This document shows, one piece after another, positions 27,007 through 38,085 of a stretch of 54,202 nt of DNA. The stretch comes from Gemmatimonadota bacterium (GTDB lineage Bacteria > Gemmatimonadota > Gemmatimonadetes > Gemmatimonadales > Gemmatimonadaceae), in contig JAHFCT010000022.1 in NCBI GenBank assembly GCA_023249375.1, positions 1-54,202 on the forward strand, given 5' to 3'. Numbering within the stretch: position 1 is the first letter of the stretch; each line of letters begins with the position of its first letter. The notes beneath the pieces were generated by a model. It had not been told where the DNA came from. It worked only from the letters and a program-made list of their open reading frames with translations, and made no database searches. Both the position numbers and the translations under genes were made by a program.

Positions 27007-27228
27007 CTACGGAGTCTGGCCGCGCGTGTACGGCAGCAGCGCCAGATAGCGCGCCTTCTTGATGGCGCTCGCCAGCTGACGCTGGTGACGCGCGCACGTG
27101 CCACTGAGCCGGCTCGGCAGGATCTTGCCGTTGTCCGTGACGAAGCGCGACAAAAAGCGCTCGTCCTTGAAGTCAACAAAGCGGATGCGGGCTTCGTCCA
27201 TCGGGCAGGTCTTCTTCTGGCGGCGCAT
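27007..27228 (-). CDS. rpsR: 30S ribosomal protein S18
   Basis: 73 residues ([20 protein letters not shown]). The conserved [20 protein letters not shown] and C-terminal [16 protein letters not shown] are present. It binds with S6 to the platform of the 30S subunit. Its ATG overlaps the rpsF TAA by one base (TAATG), indicating coupled translation of the S6/S18 pair. Confidence 0.96.
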
Positions 27229-27590
27229 TATTCGTCGTCCTCGTCGTCGTCGTCACGGGCCCGCTTGGCGGCGAGCTGTTCCTCGGTCATTGGCGGCGCG
27301 CCGAGCTCATGCTCATGGATCGAGATGAGGTAGCGTACGACGCCGTCGTCGAGCTTGAGCGAGCGCTCGAACTCGGGCAGCACCTTGCCGTCCGCCTTGA
27401 AGCGCGCGACGAGATAGTAGCCTGTCTCACGCTTGCCGATCTTGTAGGCGAGCTGGCGACGGCCCCAGTGGTTGAGCGCAATTTCGCCGTCGGCGCTGAG
27501 GAGCGCGTGGTGCTTGGCGATCTTGTCGTTGATGGCGGCGTCTTCGAGCGTCGAGTCGAAGACGTACACCGCCTCGTATTCACGAGTCAC
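27228..27590 (-). CDS. rpsF: 30S ribosomal protein S6
   Basis: 120 residues from GTG 27590 ([20 protein letters not shown]). [21 protein letters not shown] is the family core, and the C-terminus is a highly acidic tail (DDDDEDDE). AAAGGAGG lies 10 nt before the GTG. A TTG at 27599 is only one base from the SD and is rejected as the start. S6 pairs with S18, encoded next. The leader carries a strong hairpin and a good promoter. Confidence 0.95.
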
Positions 27591-27619
27591 GGATGGCAAT
27601 CCTCCTTTGGTCGTTCGCG

Positions 27620-27646
27620 CCCCCCGCGGGTTGCCGACGCGGGGGG
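27620..27646 (-). promoter_or_regulatory. Leader hairpin upstream of rpsF
   Basis: A perfect 9-bp stem (CCCCCCGCG at 27620-27628 with CGCGGGGGG at 27638-27646) and a 9-nt loop. It lies in the transcribed leader, just before the rpsF SD. S6:S18 autoregulatory RNA structures occur at this place in several phyla. Whether this hairpin belongs to that class is not established. Confidence 0.45.
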
Positions 27647-27688
27647 AGGCAAGGCGGCCTGAATTGGCCGCGTTGTGTTGAGCCTTGA

Positions 27689-27717
27689 ATAATAGTCGGG
27701 GCCTTCCGAGGGGTCAA
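27689..27717 (-). promoter_or_regulatory. Sigma70-type promoter of the rpsF operon
   Basis: On the minus strand, TTGACC (27712-27717), a 17-bp spacer and TATTAT (27689-27694). It is the best promoter match in the window. It gives a leader of about 90 nt containing the hairpin. Confidence 0.8.
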
Positions 27718-27845
27718 CCGGCGGTTCGGCCCCGCAGCTGGCGCTCCCGCGTCATGTCTTCGGGCTGCTCACTGCGGCGTCCGATTCTGTTCGGCGCGCG
27801 CACCGCGCTAATCCGGACGCCCGCGCCTTTTCCCGCGCAGGAATG

Positions 27846-27852
27846 TATATAT
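27846..27852 (+). promoter_or_regulatory. Possible -10 element of the lasso cluster
   Basis: TATATAT is the only AT-rich heptamer in the 200 bp before the first precursor gene, about 67 bp from its ATG. No convincing -35 lies at the right distance, so an activator or another sigma factor may be involved. The rest of 27718-27919 shows nothing I can name. Confidence 0.4.
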
Positions 27853-27919
27853 GTTCACTCAGGTCGGCCGCGCGCAGGCATCAGCGGTCGATCGTGATCA
27901 TTTGCCCCGGGGGTAGAGC

Positions 27920-28090
27920 ATGCCAGCCGAAGAGCTGAAGGCAGAGGCAATGGGAGCCCCCAAGCGACCAGGACGGATGGCGTGGACTGCACCAGTTCTT
28001 CGCACGCTCGGCGACCTTTCTGCCCTCACGCAGAAGGTGGACACCATCGGCAAGAATGACGGCGGCTCCGGCACCATGAAGCGCACCTGA
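27920..28090 (+). CDS. Lasso peptide precursor 1
   Basis: 56 residues (MPAEELKAEAMGAPKRPGRM at the start, GGSGTMKRT at the end). Residues 22-36 (WTAPVLRTLGDLSAL) plus Thr37 match the lasso leader pattern Y/W-x-x-P-x-L-x-x-x-G-x(4-5)-T. Taking that Thr as position -2, the core is 18 residues: KVDTIGKNDGGSGTMKRT. It has Lys1 and an Asp at position 9, suited to a nine-residue macrolactam ring. It sits 7 nt before the PqqD-type gene. GGGGGTAGAG precedes the ATG. The second precursor at 30 kb aligns without gaps over the last 35 residues (19 identical). Confidence 0.85.
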   Translation: MPAEELKAEAMGAPKRPGRMAWTAPVLRTLGDLSALTQKVDTIGKNDGGSGTMKRT

Positions 28091-28097
28091 GCACAGC

Positions 28098-28400
28098 ATG
28101 ACCGTCGCCCTTGCAATCGACGACACCGTGGCTGCCACCCCCGATCAGGTTTCCGCCGACCTCTCGGGCGAGGTGGTGATCCTCGGTATGCGAGACGGCA
28201 TCTACTACGGCGTCGAAAGCGTGGGTGCTCGCATTTGGGCGCTCATTCAGTCGCCAGTACGGGTGTCCACCATTGTGGAGACGCTCGTCGCCGAGTTTGA
28301 CGTCGAACCGACGCCGTGTGCGGCAGACGTCTTGGCCTTTGTCGACTCGCTCGTAGCCAAGGGACTCGTCGCGCGTGTCGACACCGAAGCGGCTGCGTAG
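28098..28400 (+). CDS. Lasso peptide PqqD-type leader-recognition protein (B1)
   Basis: 100 residues with the PqqD/RRE fold pattern: strands (ADLSGEVVILGMRDGIYYGV), then a winged-helix (ESVGARIWALIQSPVRVSTI, VAEFDVEPTPCAADVLAFVD). It ends SLVAKGLVARV. In lasso systems the stand-alone RRE protein B1 binds the YxxP leader and presents the precursor to protease B2 and cyclase C. It starts 7 nt after precursor 1 and overlaps B2 by 26 nt, so the three are almost certainly co-translated. Confidence 0.9.
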   Translation: MTVALAIDDTVAATPDQVSADLSGEVVILGMRDGIYYGVESVGARIWALIQSPVRVSTIVETLVAEFDVEPTPCAADVLAFVDSLVAKGLVARVDTEAAA

Positions 28401-28830
28401 CTTTGCTGACCTGCCGCGCCAGGAGCGCGGCCTGGCGCTGCGGGCGCTCTGGACGCTCGCGCTCGTTCGGGTAGGGCTGCGCCTGCTGTCGTTTCGCCGG
28501 CTTCGCGCGCGCATTGAACGCGCCGGCGGCGCCTGCGGCTCGGTGGACGAGCCCTTCGCCCGCGCCGTGCGCCGCGCGGTGGATCGGGCTGCCCGTTCGA
28601 TTCCCGGCAGCGCCTGCTTGGCTCAAGCGTTGGCGGCGGAGGTGTTGCTGCGGCGCGGCGGACGCGAGGTCCGTACCTCCATCGGAGTGGCACGCGACGG
28701 CCGACTCCTTGCGGCGCACGCGTGGGTGGAGAGTGCAGGGGTGCTGGTGACCGGAGACGCCGCCGATCTCGGGGAGTACAAGCGGTTGCTGGTCTTTGGC
28801 GAGCCGAGCGTCGCTGCGTCCGCGCCGTGA
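28375..28830 (+). CDS. Lasso peptide leader protease (B2, transglutaminase-like)
   Basis: 151 residues. The cysteine-protease triad of the lasso B2 family is visible: Cys81 in IPGSACLAQALAAEVLLRR, His115 in LLAAHAWVESAGVLV, and a likely Asp128 (GD after the His strand). TSIGVARDGR is the strand typical of the Transglut_core3 fold. It removes the leader after the conserved Thr-x, freeing the core N-terminus for ring closure. GTG 28375 lies inside the B1 gene. Its TGA overlaps the methyltransferase GTG (GTGA). Confidence 0.9.
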   Translation: MSTPKRLRSFADLPRQERGLALRALWTLALVRVGLRLLSFRRLRARIERAGGACGSVDEPFARAVRRAVDRAARSIPGSACLAQALAAEVLLRRGGREVRTSIGVARDGRLLAAHAWVESAGVLVTGDAADLGEYKRLLVFGEPSVAASAP

Positions 28831-30017
28831 CCTACGTACTGAACGACTACGTCGCGATGGTTTCGGACGAGCGCCGCACGGGCGCGTACGTGCGCGCCCT
28901 GCAGTGCTTGGTGCGTCCTGATTCTGTCGTGCTCGATCTCGGCACAGGCTTCGGGTTCTTCGCGGTGCTCGCGGCACGGCTTGGCGCCAAGCACGTCTAC
29001 GCCGTCGATCCCAACGATGCCATCTCCCTCGGCCCTGAACTGGCGCGAGACAATGGCGTGAGCGACCGCGTGACATTTTTTCACGCGGACTCGCGCGACA
29101 TTTCCCTGCCGGAGCGCGCCAACGTGCTCGTGGAGGACGTACGCGGCGTGCTGCCGTATCACGCCGACCGGGTGCGACTACTGTGCGACGCGCGTCATCG
29201 CTTGCTCACTCCGAATGCGCGGGTCGTCGCCGAGCGCGATCATCTGTTTGCGGCGCCGGTGCGGGCGCGGCCCGATTGGTCCAGCGACCGAAGGGTGCTG
29301 CAAGACGGCGCCTTCGGGGTCAGTCTCGAGGCCATTGCGCGCCGGACCGCCGATGCGTGGCGCCGAGGGAGGATCGCGCCGGATCAAGTGCTCTTCGGTG
29401 CCGAATCGATAGGATCCATTGAACTGGCGACGGTGCAGTCCCCCAACTTCGAGGGCATCGCTGCCTGGACGGTGCCGGCCGCCGCACGCATCGACGGCTT
29501 CACCGTGTGGTTCGATGCTGAACTCGCTGGCGGCGAGCGATTCTCGACCGCGCCGGGACCGGCGCAAGCCGTGCACGGAAGCTCCTATTTTCCTCTACGA
29601 GAACCGATTGAGGTGCTGCCGGGGGACGGTCTACGGTTTCGATTCGTCGGGATTCAAGGCGGCTCGGACTACACGTGGATCTGGGAATGCGGCTGTCGGC
29701 GTGGAGCCGACGCCGCGTGGACGCCGGGTCCGCGACAGTCCTCCATCGGCGCAACGCTGCTCGCTTCGCGGCGGCTCGCCTCACAGTCGCAAGAGCACGT
29801 GCCGACACTAGGAGAAGGGGGCTGTCGCCTGCAGCGCGCCACCGCGCTTATCGACGGCATTCGTGAGTCCCGAGAGATTGCTGCGGCGCTCGCCGCGACG
29901 GCGGCGTGCGGCTTTCGCGACAAGGATCAGGCATTCGCGTGGCTGGTTCGGGTGTTGCGAAACCTCGAGGTGGGTCACGAACCCCAAACCGAGGTGGAGC
30001 CACGAGATATTGCCTAA
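28827..30017 (+). CDS. PRMT-like SAM methyltransferase with possible RRE-like C-terminus
   Basis: 396 residues. SAM motif I is VVLDLGTGFGFFAVLAARLG (34-53) followed by HVYAVDPND, as in protein arginine methyltransferases. NVLVEDVRGVLPY resembles the PRMT substrate-Glu loop, though with Glu-Asp instead of two spaced Glu. A beta-rich middle (about 200-300) matches the PRMT barrel region in size. The last ~70 residues (LQRATALIDGIRESREIAAA, then AFAWLVRVLRNL) look like a PqqD-type winged helix, which would bind a leader. Being inside the lasso operon, it probably modifies the peptide. The invariant Arg17 of both cores is the obvious candidate, by inference. It could instead act on another residue. 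Confidence 0.72.
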   Translation: MTYVLNDYVAMVSDERRTGAYVRALQCLVRPDSVVLDLGTGFGFFAVLAARLGAKHVYAVDPNDAISLGPELARDNGVSDRVTFFHADSRDISLPERANVLVEDVRGVLPYHADRVRLLCDARHRLLTPNARVVAERDHLFAAPVRARPDWSSDRRVLQDGAFGVSLEAIARRTADAWRRGRIAPDQVLFGAESIGSIELATVQSPNFEGIAAWTVPAAARIDGFTVWFDAELAGGERFSTAPGPAQAVHGSSYFPLREPIEVLPGDGLRFRFVGIQGGSDYTWIWECGCRRGADAAWTPGPRQSSIGATLLASRRLASQSQEHVPTLGEGGCRLQRATALIDGIRESREIAAALAATAACGFRDKDQAFAWLVRVLRNLEVGHEPQTEVEPRDIA

Positions 30018-30038
30018 TTGTTAGACGGCGATTAAAAT
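30010..30038 (+). promoter_or_regulatory. Internal promoter before lasso precursor 2
   Basis: TTGCCT (30010-30015), a 17-bp spacer and TAAAAT (30033-30038), in the most AT-rich stretch of the cluster. It lies about 35 bp before the precursor start and overlaps the end of the methyltransferase gene. It would let the second precursor and downstream genes be expressed separately. Confidence 0.6.
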
Positions 30039-30072
30039 ACTTACAGTCCAGCTGGTCCTGAGAGGAGTGACG

Positions 30073-30270
30073 TTGGAAACGAAAGAGCGGGTCCACCATT
30101 CAGAAGCGCAGTATCCCCGTCCGTGCCGTGTCGATCAGTGCAGTGTACCCGTCCGCGCGCCGTACGAAGTGCCCTTGCTCAGGACCTTCGGATCCGTTGC
30201 CGCGCTGACCGCCAAAGTCGATTGGCAAGGGCGAACCGACGGCGGCTCCTTCTTGATGTCGCGAACCTAG
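30073..30270 (+). CDS. Lasso peptide precursor 2
   Basis: 65 residues from TTG 30073, with AGGAG five nt upstream; a GTG at 30067 would add two residues but sits on the SD. The leader motif is YEVPLLRTFGSVAALT. With that Thr at -2, the core is KVDWQGRTDGGSFLMSRT: Lys1, Asp9, and the same C-terminal Arg17-Thr18 as precursor 1. Shared core positions are K1, V2, D3, G6, D9, G10, G11, S12, M15, R17 and T18. Its N-terminal extension carries two Cys (PCRVDQC) absent from precursor 1. It lies 13 nt upstream of the cyclase gene. Confidence 0.85.
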   Translation: METKERVHHSEAQYPRPCRVDQCSVPVRAPYEVPLLRTFGSVAALTAKVDWQGRTDGGSFLMSRT

Positions 30271-30283
30271 CGACCGGAGAGCG

Positions 30284-32065
30284 ATGCTCAGCTTTGGCGC
30301 CCTAATCGCACTCGACGGCGCGCCCATAGCACCCGAGGCCTCAGCGCGCCTCCGTCAGTCGCTCGCCGCGACGCCGGGGCGCGCTCATTCGTTTGAAACG
30401 TCGACCGTCGCCTGCGTTCACGTGACACACGCGGCGCCGCTGGACAACGACCGCGATCTGCCCCTCATCGCGACACAAGGCCTCGTGTTGATGGGAGCGC
30501 TGCGCCTCGATGATCGCGAGCGTCTGCGCCGGGAACTGAAGGACGGTGCAGCGGGCGAACTTGCGAGCGCATCGGATGCCTGGCTGGCGGCCATGGCGTA
30601 TCTCCGCTGGGGTGAGCGATTCGCCGAGCACCTCATGGGTGACTTCGCGTTCTGCGTGTGGGATTCCGCGGCAGGCCGAGTGGTCTGCGTGCGCGACCAT
30701 CACGGCAACCGCCCGCTGTATTGGGGCCGCGACGGCGAGCGATTCGTCGTCAGCACGGCGCTTGAGGGCGTGCGTTCACAGGTCGCGCGGGCGGGAGAAC
30801 TGCGCGAGGACTCGATCGCGAGCTTCCTCGAAACTGGCTGGGTTCGGGATCCGTCGGCGACTGTTTGGCGCGGCGTGCATCGGGTGCCGCGCGCCACGAC
30901 GCTTTCGGTTTCGCGCGGCGCGGCACCGAACTTTCGAACGCACTGGGAGTTTCCGGTGCCAGCGCCGCTACGCTACCGCGATGATGCCGATTATGTGGCG
31001 CACTTCGCCGAGGTGCTTGGGGCTGCGGTGCGCGATCGACTGCGCGCACCGTCGGCGGTGGTGTTTCTCAGCGGCGGGATGGACAGTACCACGCTGGCGT
31101 GCACCGCCCGCGAGACGGCGCCGGACGTGACGCTGTGGGCGCTCACCACCGGGACACCGGCGCTCGCGGCGAGCGACGACGATCATCTGTCGCGTGCCGT
31201 GGCGCAGCACTTGGGGATTGCCCACGACCAACTCGCGTTCGACGAGCTCCGCTCGCTTGCCTGGCTCGATGACGTGACGCCGTATCCGGCGGAGCCGATG
31301 GATGAGCCCGACCTCGGGGCCGCGCGGGCGAGCGCGGTCGCCGCGGCACGGCGCGCGCCGATTGCGATCCTCGGGGAGGACGGCGACACGCTGCTGCAAG
31401 CGCCGACGTTGCTGGCGCAGCTGAGGTCGCAGCCGTTCGGCGAAGTCCTCGGCGCGTGGTGGCGGTATCGGCGCCAGGCCGGGCGCTGGCCATGGGTGGG
31501 GTTGGAGTGGCGCAGACGCGCGCGGGGCGCGCTCGGCCGCGGCGTGCCCGATCGCACGCCGTGGCTGCGCGACAGCGCCCGACGCCTCGCGGGCGCCGAG
31601 CCGCCGCGCGCGGCGCATCCCGTGCGTCCGCGGTCGGTGGCGTTGCTGACGTCTGGACTGTGGGACGCCGTGTACGAGCACCAGTCGCCGTCGGTGTCCG
31701 GCGCCGAGCTGCTGGTGACGCTGCCGCTGGTCGACCCTCGCGTGATCGAGTTTGTGTTTGCGATTCCACCCGTGCCGTGGGGACAGAACAAGCAGATCAT
31801 GCGTGCGGCGATGCGCCACCGGCTGCCCGCCGAGGTGCTGGCGCGCCCCAAGACGGCGTTCGGCGGATACATCGAAGCACGCGTGGCGCAGTGGCGCGCG
31901 AGCGGCGGCGCCGCTGCCCGATTGTCGGCGCGCGTGGCGCCGTGGGTGGATCGCGCGCGGGTAGAGGAGGTGTTTCAGCGCGGTCATCCGTACGCGGTGC
32001 TCGACGCATGGCGTGTGCTCGTGCTCGATCACTGGCTCGCCCGCCAGGCGCAGGGCAATGGCTGA
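30284..32065 (+). CDS. Lasso cyclase (C, asparagine-synthetase-like)
   Basis: 593 residues. The N-terminal half is a class-II glutaminase-like domain (GDFAFCVWDSAAGRVVCVRD, GNRPLYW), but it begins MLSFGAL with no Cys2. It therefore cannot hydrolyse glutamine, as expected of a lasso cyclase. The C-terminal synthetase domain has the PP-loop VVFLSGGMDSTTLA (SGGMDST at 263-269) and ILGEDGD. It adenylates the Asp9 side chain and closes the ring with the core N-terminus while the tail is threaded. CGGAGAG precedes the ATG. Confidence 0.9.
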   Translation: MLSFGALIALDGAPIAPEASARLRQSLAATPGRAHSFETSTVACVHVTHAAPLDNDRDLPLIATQGLVLMGALRLDDRERLRRELKDGAAGELASASDAWLAAMAYLRWGERFAEHLMGDFAFCVWDSAAGRVVCVRDHHGNRPLYWGRDGERFVVSTALEGVRSQVARAGELREDSIASFLETGWVRDPSATVWRGVHRVPRATTLSVSRGAAPNFRTHWEFPVPAPLRYRDDADYVAHFAEVLGAAVRDRLRAPSAVVFLSGGMDSTTLACTARETAPDVTLWALTTGTPALAASDDDHLSRAVAQHLGIAHDQLAFDELRSLAWLDDVTPYPAEPMDEPDLGAARASAVAAARRAPIAILGEDGDTLLQAPTLLAQLRSQPFGEVLGAWWRYRRQAGRWPWVGLEWRRRARGALGRGVPDRTPWLRDSARRLAGAEPPRAAHPVRPRSVALLTSGLWDAVYEHQSPSVSGAELLVTLPLVDPRVIEFVFAIPPVPWGQNKQIMRAAMRHRLPAEVLARPKTAFGGYIEARVAQWRASGGAAARLSARVAPWVDRARVEEVFQRGHPYAVLDAWRVLVLDHWLARQAQGNG

Positions 32066-33017
32066 CTACACACTCTACGGACTCGTCGTGCGCTCGGACC
32101 GACCGCTCGGCGGGCTCGACGCGGCGCCGGACGGAGCCGCCGTTGACGTGCAGATCACGCTGGGCGAAGGCGCGCCGCCCAACGCGCACTCCGAAGATCT
32201 CGTGCCGTACCACTCCGGCGGCGCGCACGCCGAGAGTGAAGCGGACGTGCGCCGCGATACCGCCGGGAATTTCTGGTTCAGGTACTCCGACGACACCTGC
32301 TTTGTGCTCGACCCTGCGGGCACGAGCATTCGTGCCTGGTGGGCGGAGCACTCCTCGCTTGAGGACACGGCCACGTACCTGCTGGGGCCGGTACTTGGAT
32401 TTGCCCTTCGCCGCCGCGGGGTGTTGGCGTTACACGCGAGCGCCATCATTCTCGGGGGCCGCGCCGTCGCGTTTCTTGGCCGCAGCGGCTCCGGCAAGTC
32501 CACCACCGCCGCGGCGTTCGCCGCCGAGGGCGTGCCGGTGCTGAGCGACGACGTGGTTGCGGTGCGGACGATCGGCGGCTTGGCATCGGCGTATCCATCG
32601 TATCGGCTGCTGCGCCTGTGGGACGCATCGGAGCAGATGTTATTTGGCACGGTGGGTCAACTGCCCTTGATGACGCCAACGTGGGACAAGCGTGCGCTGC
32701 CCCTCGGCGATGCGCATCCGTTCCACGCGGCGCCGGCACCGCTTGGCGACTTGTTCATCATCGCGCCGCGCGCCGACGATGCGCACGCACCATACGTCGA
32801 GGTGATGCGGCCGCGCGTCGCGTTCATGGAACTCGTCGCGAACACCTACGCGAACTATCTGCTGGATGACGCGATGCGCGCTGAGGAGATGGGCGCGCTC
32901 GACGCCCTGCTGCGCGGGCGCCGCGTGCGGCGCCTCGTGCCGCACGCCGATCCGAGCCGACTTGAGGCACTCGTGCGATGCGTGCGCGACGCCGTGGACG
33001 AGTCCGACGGTCGCTGA
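32058..33017 (+). CDS. HPr-kinase-like lasso peptide kinase
   Basis: 319 residues. The Walker A is LGRSGSGKSTTAAAF (GRSGSGKST at 141-149), preceded by a His in LALHASAIIL and followed by VPVLSDDVVAV. This arrangement matches HprK C-terminal domains. HprK homologues in lasso clusters phosphorylate the C-terminal residue's hydroxyl (serine in the described cases). Both cores here end in Thr18, making that the predicted target. It overlaps the cyclase gene by 8 nt and the next gene follows after 3 nt. Confidence 0.82.
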   Translation: MADYTLYGLVVRSDRPLGGLDAAPDGAAVDVQITLGEGAPPNAHSEDLVPYHSGGAHAESEADVRRDTAGNFWFRYSDDTCFVLDPAGTSIRAWWAEHSSLEDTATYLLGPVLGFALRRRGVLALHASAIILGGRAVAFLGRSGSGKSTTAAAFAAEGVPVLSDDVVAVRTIGGLASAYPSYRLLRLWDASEQMLFGTVGQLPLMTPTWDKRALPLGDAHPFHAAPAPLGDLFIIAPRADDAHAPYVEVMRPRVAFMELVANTYANYLLDDAMRAEEMGALDALLRGRRVRRLVPHADPSRLEALVRCVRDAVDESDGR

Positions 33018-33020
33018 GGC

Positions 33021-34217
33021 GTGACGACGGAGCGGGCCGCGCGCCATCTTTCGCGCATGGGTGAAACGGTGCGCCCCGAGAATGCCTTTGTGCTGGCCGC
33101 GCTGCGCCGAGACGCGCACGCGGCAGACGCGAGGCGCGCGGCGGCCAACGCCGTCACGGACTGGGCGGCGGTGGCGGCGCTGGCGGTCGCGCACGACGTC
33201 TCGTGGCACGTGCTGCGTGCCCTGCCAGGCGACGCCTCTCTCGACGCCGCTCGCGAGCCGCTCACCGCGGCGGTGAATCACGCGGCGATCAGCGGACTTG
33301 CGGCGGCGCGGCAGCTCACGGAATTGCACGGCCTGCTGCAGCGCGCGGGCGTGCGCGCGGTGGCGTACAAGGGGCCCGCGCTCGCCGTTGACGTGCACGC
33401 TGATCTGGCGGCGCGCGTGTTCACGGACTTGGATATGCTCATTGCGGAGCATGACCGCGCGCGAGCGGACGAGGCGATGCGAGCCGCCGGCTACGTGCCG
33501 CCGTCGGGCTTCACGCGGCGCGAGGCCCGCGTGTACTCCCGATGGGAGGGAGTGGCCCACTTCGAGCGTGGCGCCGATTGGCCGGTGGAGCTTCACTGGC
33601 GCTGCCAGGCGCCGCGCTATGGCGGACCACAGGATCCGGCGGCCATCGTGGCGCGCGCCGTGCCTCGCGCGCTGGGGGGCGGCACGGTGTTGGTGCCCGT
33701 CGCGGAAGATCTGGGCGTGTTGCTCGCGCTGCACGGCGCAAAGCACGCGTGGACCAGCATGATGTGGCTCGCCGACTTCGCGGCCGCCGTGACGCGTCCC
33801 GCGTTCCACTGGACCGTGGCGACCGAGCGCGCGTCGGCGTGGGGAGTGCAGCGCGCATGGCATTACGCCGTGCGGGTTGCGTCGACCCTCGTCTGCTTGC
33901 CCGTGCCCGAGCGCCTTCTGGCTGCAGCGCGCGGTGACGCGCGGATTACGCCGCTGGTGGACGCGGCCTGCGCGCGACTGTCGGGTGCGAGCGTGATCCC
34001 GGATGTCGGCGCGGAGTCAACCCCGCGTTACGACCTGCAGTGGCTGGACGGAACGCTGCCGCGGCTGCGGTATCTCGCGCTGGCGACGGTGCTGCCTACC
34101 CCGGCGGACCGCATGGCGGCGCGTCTGCCCGATGTGCTGCTTCCGCTGGCGTATCCGCTGCGCGCCGTGCGGGTCGCCGCACGCGCGATGGCGCACGCGG
34201 CGACGAGGCACGAATGA
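33021..34217 (+). CDS. Nucleotidyltransferase-family protein of the lasso cluster
   Basis: 398 residues of the NTP_transf_5 type. AVAYKGPALAVDVHADLA (KGPAL at 117-121) is followed by the metal-binding acidic pair in VFTDLDMLIAEHD (D136, D138). Then come VELHWR and a helical C-terminus with LLALHGAKHAWTSMMWLADF. Family members recur in kinase-containing lasso clusters, but to my knowledge the reaction is undefined. It could transfer a nucleotide or extend the phosphate added by the kinase, which is inference. GTG 33021 is the start. Its stop overlaps the ABC exporter ATG (ATGA). Confidence 0.75.
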   Translation: MTTERAARHLSRMGETVRPENAFVLAALRRDAHAADARRAAANAVTDWAAVAALAVAHDVSWHVLRALPGDASLDAAREPLTAAVNHAAISGLAAARQLTELHGLLQRAGVRAVAYKGPALAVDVHADLAARVFTDLDMLIAEHDRARADEAMRAAGYVPPSGFTRREARVYSRWEGVAHFERGADWPVELHWRCQAPRYGGPQDPAAIVARAVPRALGGGTVLVPVAEDLGVLLALHGAKHAWTSMMWLADFAAAVTRPAFHWTVATERASAWGVQRAWHYAVRVASTLVCLPVPERLLAAARGDARITPLVDAACARLSGASVIPDVGAESTPRYDLQWLDGTLPRLRYLALATVLPTPADRMAARLPDVLLPLAYPLRAVRVAARAMAHAATRHE

Positions 34218-35908
34218 GCGACCTGCGCGCCTTCGCGCGCTTCCTTTGGCGTGACCACCGTCGCGCGATGCTCGTGGTGGCAGTTGCCTCGGCGGCGCTG
34301 TCGCTCACCGAGGGCGTCGGCCTTTTGATGCTGGTCCCCATGCTGCAACAGGTGGGTGTCTCGACGTCCGGCGATGCCGCCGACCACGTGTCACGCGCGC
34401 TCGAGTCGGTGCTGCGCGCCGCGGGTCTCGAGCCCACGCTGTTGAGCGTGTTGGTGCTTGTCGTTGCGCTCGTGACCTTGCGTGCGACGCTGCAGTGGAT
34501 ACTCGCGGTCTGGGAGGCACGTCTTGAGGCGGGTGTGATTGGCCGACTGCGCCAGCGTCTGTTTGCCGCAGTGGTTGCCATGCCGTGGGCGCGATTCACC
34601 GGCGAGCGGCCGGCAGCGCTGCAGCACGCCATTGGTCCGCAAGTTGATGATGTGCACAGCGCGCTGCTGCTGTTGCTGCAAGGCGCTTCGCTGACGGCGG
34701 CGGTGGCGGCGGCCGCTGCCGTCGCCCTCGTGGTGTCGCCCGCGCTGACAGTCATCGTCGGAGTGAGCGGGGCTTTGCTCTTCTGGCTGGCTCGCCAGTT
34801 GCGGGCTCCCGGCCGCGCGGAGGGCGACGCGTTGCTCGCGGCGTCCATAGGACTCTTCGCTCGCATCAGCGAACTGCTCGGCGGTCTCAAGATGGTGCAC
34901 GCGCACGGCGCCGAGGAGCGAGCGGTGGCCGCCGTGGCCGCGGACACGGCGATGTGGACCTCGCTGACTGAACGTACCGCCCTGCGACGCGGGCTCGTGA
35001 GCTTGGCGCTCGCCGTGGCGTCCGCCTTCGTGCTTGGCGTGCTGGTCTGGCTGGGCGTGTCGCTGGCGCACTTGTCGCCCGCTACGCTGCTGCTGCTTCT
35101 GCTGCTGTACGCGCGACTGGTGCCGCGCGTCTCCGAGCTACAAGCAACTGCAAGTTCGCTGGGGCAGACACTCGCCTCGTATCGCTCAGTGGCGGCCCTG
35201 CTAACGCGATGCGCGGGGGAGCGAGACAATGCGGATGGGCGCTTGGCGGCGCTCCCTCGGCTGCCCGCGCGCGCGCCTGACCTTGCGGTGCGAGGGATCA
35301 CCGTTCGCTACCCGGCGACGGAGGGGCGGGCGCTCGTGGATTTCTCCGCGCGCTTCGACGCGGGCACCATCACCGTCGTGACGGGCCCGTCAGGCGCCGG
35401 CAAGACCACGCTGGGCGACGTGCTGCTTGGCCTGCTCGCACCCGAAGTGGGCGACGTCCTTGTCGATGGCGCGCCGCTGGCGGCCCTGCCGCGCGCGCAG
35501 TGGTGCGCGCGGGTGGGCTATCTGGCGCAGGAGCCGATGCTCTTTCACGGCACCATCCGCGAGAACCTGCTGTTCGCGCACCCCGACGCCAGCCACGACG
35601 AGCTGCGCGCGGCGCTGCGCGATGCCGCATGCGACTTTGTCCATCGTCTGCCGCACGGACTCGACGCCCCGATCGGCGAGCGCGGCGTGATGCTCAGTGG
35701 CGGTGAGCGTCAGCGGCTGGCCCTCGCGCGCGCCCTGCTGCGACAACCCGACCTGCTCGTGCTCGACGAGGCGACGAGCGCGCTCGACGCCGAGACCGAG
35801 ACGCGCATTCTCGACACGCTCCACGCGCTCAAAGGGCGCTGCACGGTGGTGTTCTGCACGCACCGCGAGGCGCCAACGGCGATCGCCGATCAGTTGCTGA
35901 GGCTGTAG
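34214..35908 (+). CDS. Lasso peptide ABC exporter (D)
   Basis: 564 residues. An N-terminal six-helix exporter membrane domain (about 15-310) is fused to an ABC ATPase. Walker A is TGPSGAGKTT (390-399), the signature MLSGGERQRLALARAL (493-508) and Walker B DLLVLDEATSALD. The half-transporter would dimerise in the inner membrane and export the mature peptide, giving self-immunity as well. It is the last gene of the cluster. Only 51 nt separate it from convergent ychF, and no terminator is obvious there. Confidence 0.9.
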   Translation: MSDLRAFARFLWRDHRRAMLVVAVASAALSLTEGVGLLMLVPMLQQVGVSTSGDAADHVSRALESVLRAAGLEPTLLSVLVLVVALVTLRATLQWILAVWEARLEAGVIGRLRQRLFAAVVAMPWARFTGERPAALQHAIGPQVDDVHSALLLLLQGASLTAAVAAAAAVALVVSPALTVIVGVSGALLFWLARQLRAPGRAEGDALLAASIGLFARISELLGGLKMVHAHGAEERAVAAVAADTAMWTSLTERTALRRGLVSLALAVASAFVLGVLVWLGVSLAHLSPATLLLLLLLYARLVPRVSELQATASSLGQTLASYRSVAALLTRCAGERDNADGRLAALPRLPARAPDLAVRGITVRYPATEGRALVDFSARFDAGTITVVTGPSGAGKTTLGDVLLGLLAPEVGDVLVDGAPLAALPRAQWCARVGYLAQEPMLFHGTIRENLLFAHPDASHDELRAALRDAACDFVHRLPHGLDAPIGERGVMLSGGERQRLALARALLRQPDLLVLDEATSALDAETETRILDTLHALKGRCTVVFCTHREAPTAIADQLLRL

Positions 35909-35959
35909 CCGCCTGACACCGCGCGCTGCTGCCGTTCTGCGACGCGCGCTGGGTCGGAC

Positions 35960-37060
35960 TTACACGTTGAATCGGAAGAGCAGGACGTCGCCGTCGTTGA
36001 CGACGTATTCCTTGCCTTCACTGCGCACGACGCCCGCGTCCTTGGCTCCCTTGAGTCCACCGTACGAAATGAAATCGTCGTAGCTCACCGTCTCGGCGCG
36101 AATGAACCCGCGCTCGAAGTCGCTGTGAATGACGCCGGCGGCCTGGGGGGCGGTGTCTCCCCGGTGGATCGTCCAGGCGCGCACTTCTTTCTCGCCGGCC
36201 GTGAAATAGGTCTGCAGACCGAGCAGGTGGTAGCCGCCGCGAATCAGCCGGTCGAGCCCAGCCGACTCGATGCCGAGGTGGTGCAGGAACTCGGCGCGTT
36301 CCTCCGGCGGAAGTTCGGCGAGTTCCATTTCGATCTTCGCGGAGAACGTCACGACCTCGGCGGGTTCGTGATCATTGGCGATCGCTGCACGCAGCGCCGT
36401 GATGTGCGGCCCTTCAGCGCCGCCCAGTTCGGCGTCCGTGACATTGGCCGCGTAGAGAATGGGCTTGAGCGTCAGCAGCTGCAGTGGCTGCATGAAGGCG
36501 CGCTCCTCGGGTGTGAGCGCCACGTGCCAGAGCGCGCGTCCTTCCGAGAGCGGCCCGTACGCCTTCTCGAGCGCCGCCACCTCGGTCGCCGCGGCCTTGT
36601 CGCCGGTCTTGGCCGAGCGGCGCGCGCGATCAAGGCGTTTCTCCACGGACGTGAGGTCGGCGAGTGCCAGCTCGAACTCGATCGTCTCGCGGTCGCGCAC
36701 CGGATCGACGGCGCCATCGACGTGCGTCACGTCGTGATCGTCGAAGCAGCGCACGACGTGCACGATGGCGTCCGTTTCGCGGATGTTCGAGAGAAACGCG
36801 TTGCCGCGTCCCTCGCCCTTGGACGCACCGCGCACCAGCCCCGCGATGTCGACGAACTGCACGGCGGCCGGCAGCGTGCGCTGCGGCTTGACGACGTCGG
36901 CGAGCCGGTCGAGCCGCGGGTCCGGGACGTTCACCACGCCGATGTTCGGGTCGATGGTGCAGAACGGATAGTTGGCCGCCTCGGCCTTGGCCGAGGTGAT
37001 GGCATTGAAGAGCGAGGACTTGCCGACGTTCGGCAGTCCGACGATTCCGAGAGAGAGCAT
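35960..37060 (-). CDS. ychF: Ribosome-binding ATPase YchF
   Basis: 366 residues of an Obg-family protein. G1 is [15 protein letters not shown] (8-22), G3 [18 protein letters not shown], with a coiled-coil insert around [19 protein letters not shown]. The G4-like ANVTDAEL replaces the NKxD of GTPases, consistent with the ATP preference of YchF. The C-terminal TGS domain contains [26 protein letters not shown]. It is full length. It is convergent with the lasso cluster. Confidence 0.96.
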
Positions 37061-37245: not shown

Positions 37246-38085
37246 ATGGAATCCGCGACGGTAGTCGGGACTGTCCCGCATAAGTCCCTGCAGGAGCACG
37301 CGCTCTGGGTGATGGTGCGCGTCAGCGGCGAGCATCTGGTGCTGCCCTCGGCGCTGGTCCTCGAGATGGTCCGCGCCCCTGCCACGCACGCGGTGCCGTT
37401 CGCGCCGGACGCGGTGCGCGGCGTCGCGCCGCTGCGTGGACAGGTGGGGCTGGTGGTGGACATGCGGCGGCGATTCGGCCTCGAGTCGCTGCAGGAGGAG
37501 CAGGCCGCGCTCACCGCGTTGCTGCATGCGCGCGAAAAGGACCATCGGCTCTGGCTTGAGGACCTCGAGGATTCAGTGCGCGAGCGACGTCCGTTCACGC
37601 GCACGCTCGATCCGCACGCTTGCGCCTTCGGCCAGTGGTATGACGCGTATCAGGCGCCGACACTCGAACTGGCATGGCACCTCCGCCAGTTCGCCGAGCC
37701 GCACGGCAGGATACACGCGCAAGGGGCCATCGTGGCCGAGCATATGAAGCACGGACGTCACGACGAGGCAATGGTGGTCATCGACCTCGCACGCAAGAGT
37801 GTGCTCGGCCGCCTCATCGACCTCTTCGAGGGAGCGCGGCACCTCGTGACTGGCTCGTCGCGGGAGATCGCGGTGATCGTGAACGTGCAGGGGCGCTCGG
37901 TGGGACTCGTCGTGGACGAGGTGGAAGGCATCGATCAGCTCAAGTCCGAGACCTTTCAGGCGATGCCCGACGGCTTCGGGAGCGAGGATCCGGCGATCAT
38001 CGGCACGGTGCGTACGCGGCGCGAGGACAAGGTCGTGGTGGTGCTCGATGTCGACGTGCTGACGCGGAGCTATGCCGGCCGCTGA
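37246..38085 (+). CDS. CheW-like protein with an inserted CZB zinc-binding domain
   Basis: 279 residues. A CheW/SH3-like fold is split. The first half (about 15-80) is EHALWVMVRVSGEHLVLPSA with GVAPLRGQVGLVVDMRRRFG. The second half (about 205-275) is REIAVIVNVQGRSVGLVVDE to VVVVLDVDVL. Between them lies a chemoreceptor zinc-binding module: H100 in DHRLWL, C126 in CAFGQWY, and H153 and H157. CheW couples receptors to CheA, and CZB domains sense zinc or oxidants through the Cys-His3 site. ATG 37246 is the start. The 185-bp gap upstream shows nothing specific. Confidence 0.8.
   Translation: MESATVVGTVPHKSLQEHALWVMVRVSGEHLVLPSALVLEMVRAPATHAVPFAPDAVRGVAPLRGQVGLVVDMRRRFGLESLQEEQAALTALLHAREKDHRLWLEDLEDSVRERRPFTRTLDPHACAFGQWYDAYQAPTLELAWHLRQFAEPHGRIHAQGAIVAEHMKHGRHDEAMVVIDLARKSVLGRLIDLFEGARHLVTGSSREIAVIVNVQGRSVGLVVDEVEGIDQLKSETFQAMPDGFGSEDPAIIGTVRTRREDKVVVVLDVDVLTRSYAGR

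Follow-up and report, generated by a model that had tools for sequence, protein, structure and literature searches.

Lasso peptide clusters with a kinase of their own are known from paeninodin (PadeK) and from the ThcoK and SyanK pathways, in which B1, B2, C and D genes stand beside an HPr-kinase-like (HprK-like) enzyme with a His-Lys-Asp-Asp set, and in which the precursor ends in a hydroxyl residue. The Bacillus pseudomycoidin cluster pairs such a kinase (PsmK) with a nucleotidyltransferase-family protein (PsmN), with no methyltransferase reported; what we cite on PadeK and PsmN is taken from one review (PMC9266682). The bsf cluster of Bradymonas likewise combines K (BsfK), N (BsfN) and D with B1 and B2, and its B1 speeds the kinase, but the phosphate goes to ring Ser3, Ile occupies position -2, and no methyltransferase is mentioned. 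Cluster-encoded methylation of lasso precursors has been described for the lassomycin-type C-terminal carboxyl methyltransferase StspM, modelled on mitomycin 7-O-methyltransferase and not on the fold of protein arginine methyltransferases (PRMTs), and for LihM of lihuanodin/cellulonodin-2, an S-adenosylmethionine (SAM)-dependent enzyme of the PIMT family that targets an Asp within the ring once the peptide is threaded, leading to aspartimide. Here we analyze a 54,202-nt stretch of a Gemmatimonadota genome (contig JAHFCT010000022.1, assembly GCA_023249375.1), the whole of which is referred to as the window. It carries a nine-gene lasso cluster (Table 1) that differs from the paeninodin, ThcoK and SyanK clusters by a terminal Thr following basic residues and by an additional methyltransferase of PRMT fold (MT). 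The host is a little-studied type of bacterium from soil and water. The locus is a real, intact and conserved lasso peptide cluster with one undescribed tailoring enzyme family: K, N and the exporter D are of known kinds, and MT is the new part.

The AlphaFold2 model of MT (mean predicted local distance difference test score, pLDDT, 83.5) consists of a Rossmann domain (residues ~1–135), a beta barrel (~136–305) and a variable helical C-terminal part (~320–385), the first two making up the PRMT fold. The model superposes on PRMT1, PRMT8, PRMT3 and CARM1 with Z scores of 31–32 over ~300 residues (root mean square deviation 2.0–2.4), and a ten-member MT profile run against the PDB found PRMT6 (E 9e-36); Pfam gave weak generic matches only. 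Relative to type I PRMTs (PRMT1/2/3/6/8, CARM1), with which it shares ~20% identity, MT has the complete fold, the SAM-binding motif and equivalents of Met48 and Arg54, but the elements that hold the substrate arginine are not kept. The YFxxY motif is absent in both alignment and sequence. Where PRMTs have the double-Glu loop SExMGxxLxxE, MT (LVEDVRGVLPYHADRV) reads EDVRGVLPYHA, with Asp104 for the first Glu and Ala113 for the second, and the THW loop has become AVH, His or Tyr replacing Trp in nearly all relatives. Every member of this DxRG subfamily has Asp in place of the first Glu (invariant in the ten-member alignment), and none has the second. Since YFxxY, the double-Glu loop and THW are missing, MT, judged by its residues, is built on the PRMT scaffold yet is not properly classed as a PRMT. 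A preliminary description of the locus had named it a PRMT-like methyltransferase, which holds for the fold and should not be read as arginine methylation. MT may instead be seen as a natural example of a PRMT fold with a rebuilt arginine-binding site.

Assignment to the methyltransferases already known from lasso pathways found no basis either. In Pfam, neither a PCMT match (PIMT type) nor a match to Methyltransf_2, a plant-type O-methyltransferase domain that we take to be that of StspM from the template of its model, was obtained for MT at E up to 1; the NCBIfam pcm model reached E 0.042, on the SAM motif only. The C-terminal helical part resembles a PqqD-like domain in its pattern, but the idea that such a domain is fused to MT was dropped, as the two profiles matched with a probability of 14%, over 26 columns, and many relatives do without this part. 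Another PRMT-like subfamily, encoded within lasso loci or next to them, has retained the double-Glu loop (SEIIGN.PL.E; L127 7291–8724, L036 1–1119 and L038 16880–18445, all on the minus strand; L-numbers denote individual loci), and L036 and L038 carry both subfamilies. Going by this loop, true methylation of lasso peptides on arginine is more plausibly sought in this second subfamily.

DxRG-type MT was found in ~28 loci from several phyla, nearly all recognizable as lasso loci, with homologues of 31–70% identity lying within complete or partial lasso clusters. Outside the phylum, these are loci of Acidobacteria, Myxococcota, Pseudomonas sp. N040, an Anaerolineae bin, an Acidimicrobiia bin and a Granulosicoccaceae bin; several of these sources being bins, individual taxon labels are provisional. 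In all sources together, K accompanies MT in 25 of the 25 loci with enough flanking sequence; L027, L040 and L140, at contig edges, were left out of this count, and the distant matches L031, L046 and L127, which belong to other subfamilies, were left out of all counts. In the phylum sample, i.e., ~110 lasso loci gathered with the B2 model and scored gene by gene with profiles, K is present in 13/13 loci with MT versus 56/95 without (p 0.0037; a further MT locus, truncated at a contig end, is not counted), statistics that are inflated by shared ancestry, so that the p-values are to be taken as description. MT is unevenly spread over a tree of 82 kinases: it forms clusters, with 12 changes against a shuffled mean of 21.5 (none of 500 shuffles was as low), and is wholly missing from one clade of 30 kinases of the same phylum. 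In many loci MT and K lie close together on one strand. MT is a real, selected part of the pathway, and the tailoring set regarded as unusual in the preliminary description, although present, is not peculiar to this genome. Within that set, kinase and nucleotidyltransferase are an already known pair (pseudomycoidin; bsf of Bradymonas), whereas MT together with a kinase is new: in line with what had been claimed, no characterized lasso pathway with a PRMT-like methyltransferase and a kinase was found in the open-access literature. Nor did we find there a PRMT-fold enzyme in any lasso pathway, an absence that is not proof; three reviews (PMC9266682, PMC11285071, PMC13352647 (2026)) treat lasso carboxyl and aspartate methylation and mention no PRMT-fold enzyme. 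The family would thus be a recurrent, undescribed group of lasso tailoring enzymes, spread over several phyla and linked to the kinase.

The substrates of this pathway would be two precursors. That of A1 has the leader MPAEELKAEAMGAPKRPGRMAWTAPVLRTLGDLSALTQ and the predicted core KVDTIGKNDGGSGTMKRT, with a predicted Lys1-Asp9 ring and a C-terminal Thr18 (its ortholog in L021 is 77% identical); in A2, the leader ends in APYEVPLLRTFGSVAALTA and the predicted core is KVDWQGRTDGGSFLMSRT, again of 18 residues. The two are alike around the leader/core junction (WTAPVL...G...LTQ/KVDTIGKND in A1, YEVPLL...G...LTA/KVDWQGRTD in A2): both have the aromatic-xxPxL...G...T(-2) leader and an acidic residue (Asp/Glu) within core positions 7–9. 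The YxxP leaders ascribed to both precursors in the preliminary description are found in A2 (YEVP), but A1 has Trp in place of Tyr (WTAP). K shows the motifs of the PadeK/BsfK type of lasso kinase (ALHASAI, RSGSGKSTT, LSDDVV); its best NCBIfam match, HprK_rel_A (HprK-related kinase A, TIGR04352; E 1e-9), reaches 38 bits against a cut-off of 200, so K is related to that equivalog and lies outside it. Lasso kinases are expected to find a hydroxyl residue at the precursor C terminus, as is the case with Thr18 in both cores, the sole hydroxyl position that is invariant among closely related KVD-type cores of the genus. Among lasso loci of the phylum, Ser or Thr occurs in the last two core residues of 54/63 precursors with K versus 2/24 without (Fisher p 2e-11), or, counted per locus, 41/48 versus 2/18. 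Because K goes with terminal Ser/Thr, and given the paeninodin and pseudomycoidin precedents (PMC9266682), Thr18 is the likely K target in both cores as predicted.

We infer the chemistry of the pathway and its order from what is seen directly, namely gene content, catalytic residues, the PRMT fold with its missing hallmarks, the MT-K and K-terminal Ser/Thr links, and the fixed chromosomal site. In the explanation that we consider best (probability about 0.68), two lasso peptides would be made, phosphorylated by K at Thr18, decorated by N and methylated by MT in the tail. B1 would bind the leader and help K to phosphorylate the Thr18 side chain of the precursor, N would further decorate the phosphate as PsmN does in pseudomycoidin, and MT, its arginine clamp lost, would place one or more methyl groups on this precursor too, most probably at a tail position adjoining the phosphorylated residue. 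B2 would then remove the leader, C close the ring and D export the two related peptides, each with a Lys1-Asp9 macrolactam and a tail ending in ...RT. That MT acts close to the phosphorylation site is suggested by the strict MT-K link. As to the acceptor, we tentatively put first, at somewhat less than even odds, a nitrogen in the side chain of the basic residue or residues that precede Thr18; a carboxylate (C-terminal or Asp) is a weaker candidate, the hydroxyl or phosphate of the kinase site weaker still, and a site elsewhere the least probable. A basic residue before Thr is not claimed as a methylation signature, as it directly precedes Ser/Thr in 27/31 precursors with MT versus 23/39 without, and the independent-contrast test had too few independent pairs (4–6; p 1). 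Action of MT on a hexose added by N is disfavored, since MT occurs without N in the stretches around L037 and L041.

Several observations, the shared ancestry mentioned above and the signature counts just given among them, weigh against this explanation. The Myxococcota loci L038 and L042 have MT and K with cores that lack a terminal Ser/Thr, and BsfK itself acts on Ser3 and not on the terminal residue (PMC10368454); the kinases of these two loci may be BsfK-like exceptions. Three sister species of the genus (L110, L113 and L148), which have lost MT or never had it, hold K, N and a similar core; the methyl group can therefore be done without, no core residue marks the presence of MT, and the residue modified need not be one peculiar to MT loci. 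The lasso product as such is a prediction from the genes. If MT were instead a genuine arginine methyltransferase that targets the arginines of the tail (...KRT, ...SRT) and uses Asp104 in the role of the first loop glutamate, the PRMT fold retained from end to end (Z ~32, 305 residues), the conserved Asp and the Lys or Arg among the last five residues of 30/31 precursors with MT would be in line with it. We consider this unlikely: the classical PRMT reaction is disfavored by loss of the arginine clamp, the second Glu being absent from every DxRG member and THW and YFxxY missing as well, many tails in MT loci have Lys but no Arg (KKS, KTS, IKS, TKT), and Lys/Arg is also found in the tail of 31/39 precursor calls with K but no MT (a few false precursors included).

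A non-guanidine acceptor is what the lost clamp implies, and MT might accordingly O-methylate the phospho-Thr/Ser or the C-terminal carboxyl, masking negative charge in the tail. No MT is found without K, its distribution tracks the kinase lineage, it can do without N (none lies in the stretch around L037), and C-terminal carboxyl methylation is known from lassomycin-type peptides (PMC9266682). A carboxyl target would, however, not need K, and the last residue of the peptide is not constant (T, S, A, G, R, V). We also know of no precedent for phosphate methylation in peptides. With either target, we regard this chemistry as possible but less likely than not. Its narrower form, a kinase-companion PRMT-fold enzyme that has lost guanidine binding and methylates the phosphorylated peptide end (the phosphate or an adjoining group), seems less probable again; to our knowledge, such a phospho-methyl modification occurs in no peptide natural product. 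The three sister clusters without MT would also be understandable if MT merely resided in the operon and acted on an unrelated molecule, which is very improbable in view of its repeated association with lasso loci of differing gene order in several phyla, its position between B2 and A2, and the strong K link. Only marginally more credible is that the cluster is silent or its products linear, as might be feared from the kinase-bearing bsf cluster, which yielded no lasso peptide in the hosts tried (PMC10368454). All genes are intact and under purifying selection, and all 11 species sampled in the genus retain the cluster, with no change of site in any assembly that covers it.

The preliminary description had listed nine plus-strand genes in the order A1-B1-B2-methyltransferase-A2-C-kinase-nucleotidyltransferase-D, between a minus-strand rpsF operon and ychF. 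All nine lie where described, S18/S6 (rpsR/rpsF) and YchF flank them on the minus strand, and family, residue and fold checks agree with a lasso cluster carrying an HprK-like kinase, an NTP_transf_5-like protein and a PRMT-like methyltransferase. B1, B2 and C occur together, and the catalytic residues of B2, C, K and N, including the B2 Cys-His pair and the C PP-loop noted earlier, are present and common to relatives. Comparison with lasso models placed B2 above the curated cut-off (NF033537, 80.6 bits versus 33), whereas B1 (best match the lasso PqqD model) and C (cyanobacterial cyclase model NF033535, E 4e-53; no Cys at residue 2) stayed below the exception cut-offs. MT starts with GTG and overlaps B2 by 4 bases. 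The reading of these genes is not a chance one: every cluster gene has syntenic homologues in other species, and the divergence at third codon positions exceeds that at second positions ~3- to 4.6-fold in B1, B2, MT, C, K and N, and 1.9-fold in D, the pattern of purifying selection.

Table 1. Features of the lasso cluster in the window.
Feature	Position	Strand	Basis
Whole cluster, A1-B1-B2-MT-A2-C-K-N-D	27920-35908	+	nine genes
A1, lasso precursor, 56 amino acids	27920..28090	+	leader motif WxxPxL...G...LT; ortholog in L021
B1, PqqD-type recognition element of ribosomally synthesized and post-translationally modified peptides	28098..28400	+	Pfam PqqD 64 bits, E 1e-17
B2, lasso leader peptidase (transglutaminase-like)	28375..28830	+	NF033537; Cys...HAWVE
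MT, PRMT-fold methyltransferase, DxRG subfamily, 396 amino acids	28827..30017	+	AlphaFold2 model, PDB comparison, profile, motif table
MT residues 1-11, codons	28827..28859	+	Met11 equals PRMT1 Met48; protein begins downstream of YFxxY position
MT residues 101-116, codons	29127..29174	+	PRMT double-Glu loop position
A2, second lasso precursor	30067..30270	+	leader end and predicted core (see text)
C, lasso cyclase (asparagine-synthetase-like)	30284..32065	+	Pfam Asn_synthase 98 bits and GATase; PP-loop SGGMDS
K, HPr-kinase-like precursor kinase	32058..33017	+	His/GSGKS/DD motif
N, NTP_transf_5 nucleotidyltransferase-like, PsmN type	33021..34217	+	PF14907 147 bits; KG...DLD (DxD)
D, ABC exporter	34214..35908	+	ABC_membrane and ABC_tran

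The lasso cluster was found in 11/11 sampled species of the genus, ten of them by B2 and the eleventh (L027) as a broken contig with precursors, C and MT; MT occurs in eight of the 11 genomes. Eight relatives within the genus have assemblies that extend far enough, and in all of them the cluster occupies the rpsF-ychF site; L022, L033 and members of another genus of the family (L028, L115, L124, L134, L159, L186) likewise have S6 and/or YchF next to it. Being kept at the same site in the genus and in further lineages, the cluster is inherited and long established at this chromosomal position, not a chance import. Such genus-wide retention, at a fixed site wherever visible, suggests a standing role for the peptide and not that of an occasional weapon. 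The rpsF-ychF interval (27228–37060 in the window) is a conserved home of lasso clusters in the family, which lie between or beside both genes in at least three genera.

Some further features of related loci may be mentioned. Cores in register with the leader carry the ring Asp at position 10 (e.g., SVGMKGTTSD, TRSKAGTLKD) in L028 (7253–7636), L029 (8886), L044 (8580), L115 (11123), L124 (7243) and L134 (6879), predicting either native 10-residue rings or a shifted leader cut; in one review, rings of this size are represented only by an engineered fusilassin variant. Two-cysteine cores (TCAKGYNDGTATGCKNSFKKS and relatives) adjoin the same type of MT in L026 (10901) and L027 (1070 and 1271), suggestive of an added disulfide. 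A distinct kinase clade of the phylum that never occurs with MT (L142, L145, L163–L165, L170, L172, L176, L178–L180, L182, L184) goes with leaders of the form YxxPxLERFG(T/S)(F/L)RELT and with long cores, most of which end in RS, GS or TS. In the window itself, a CheW domain fused to a chemoreceptor zinc-binding (CZB) domain is encoded at 37246–38085 on the plus strand.

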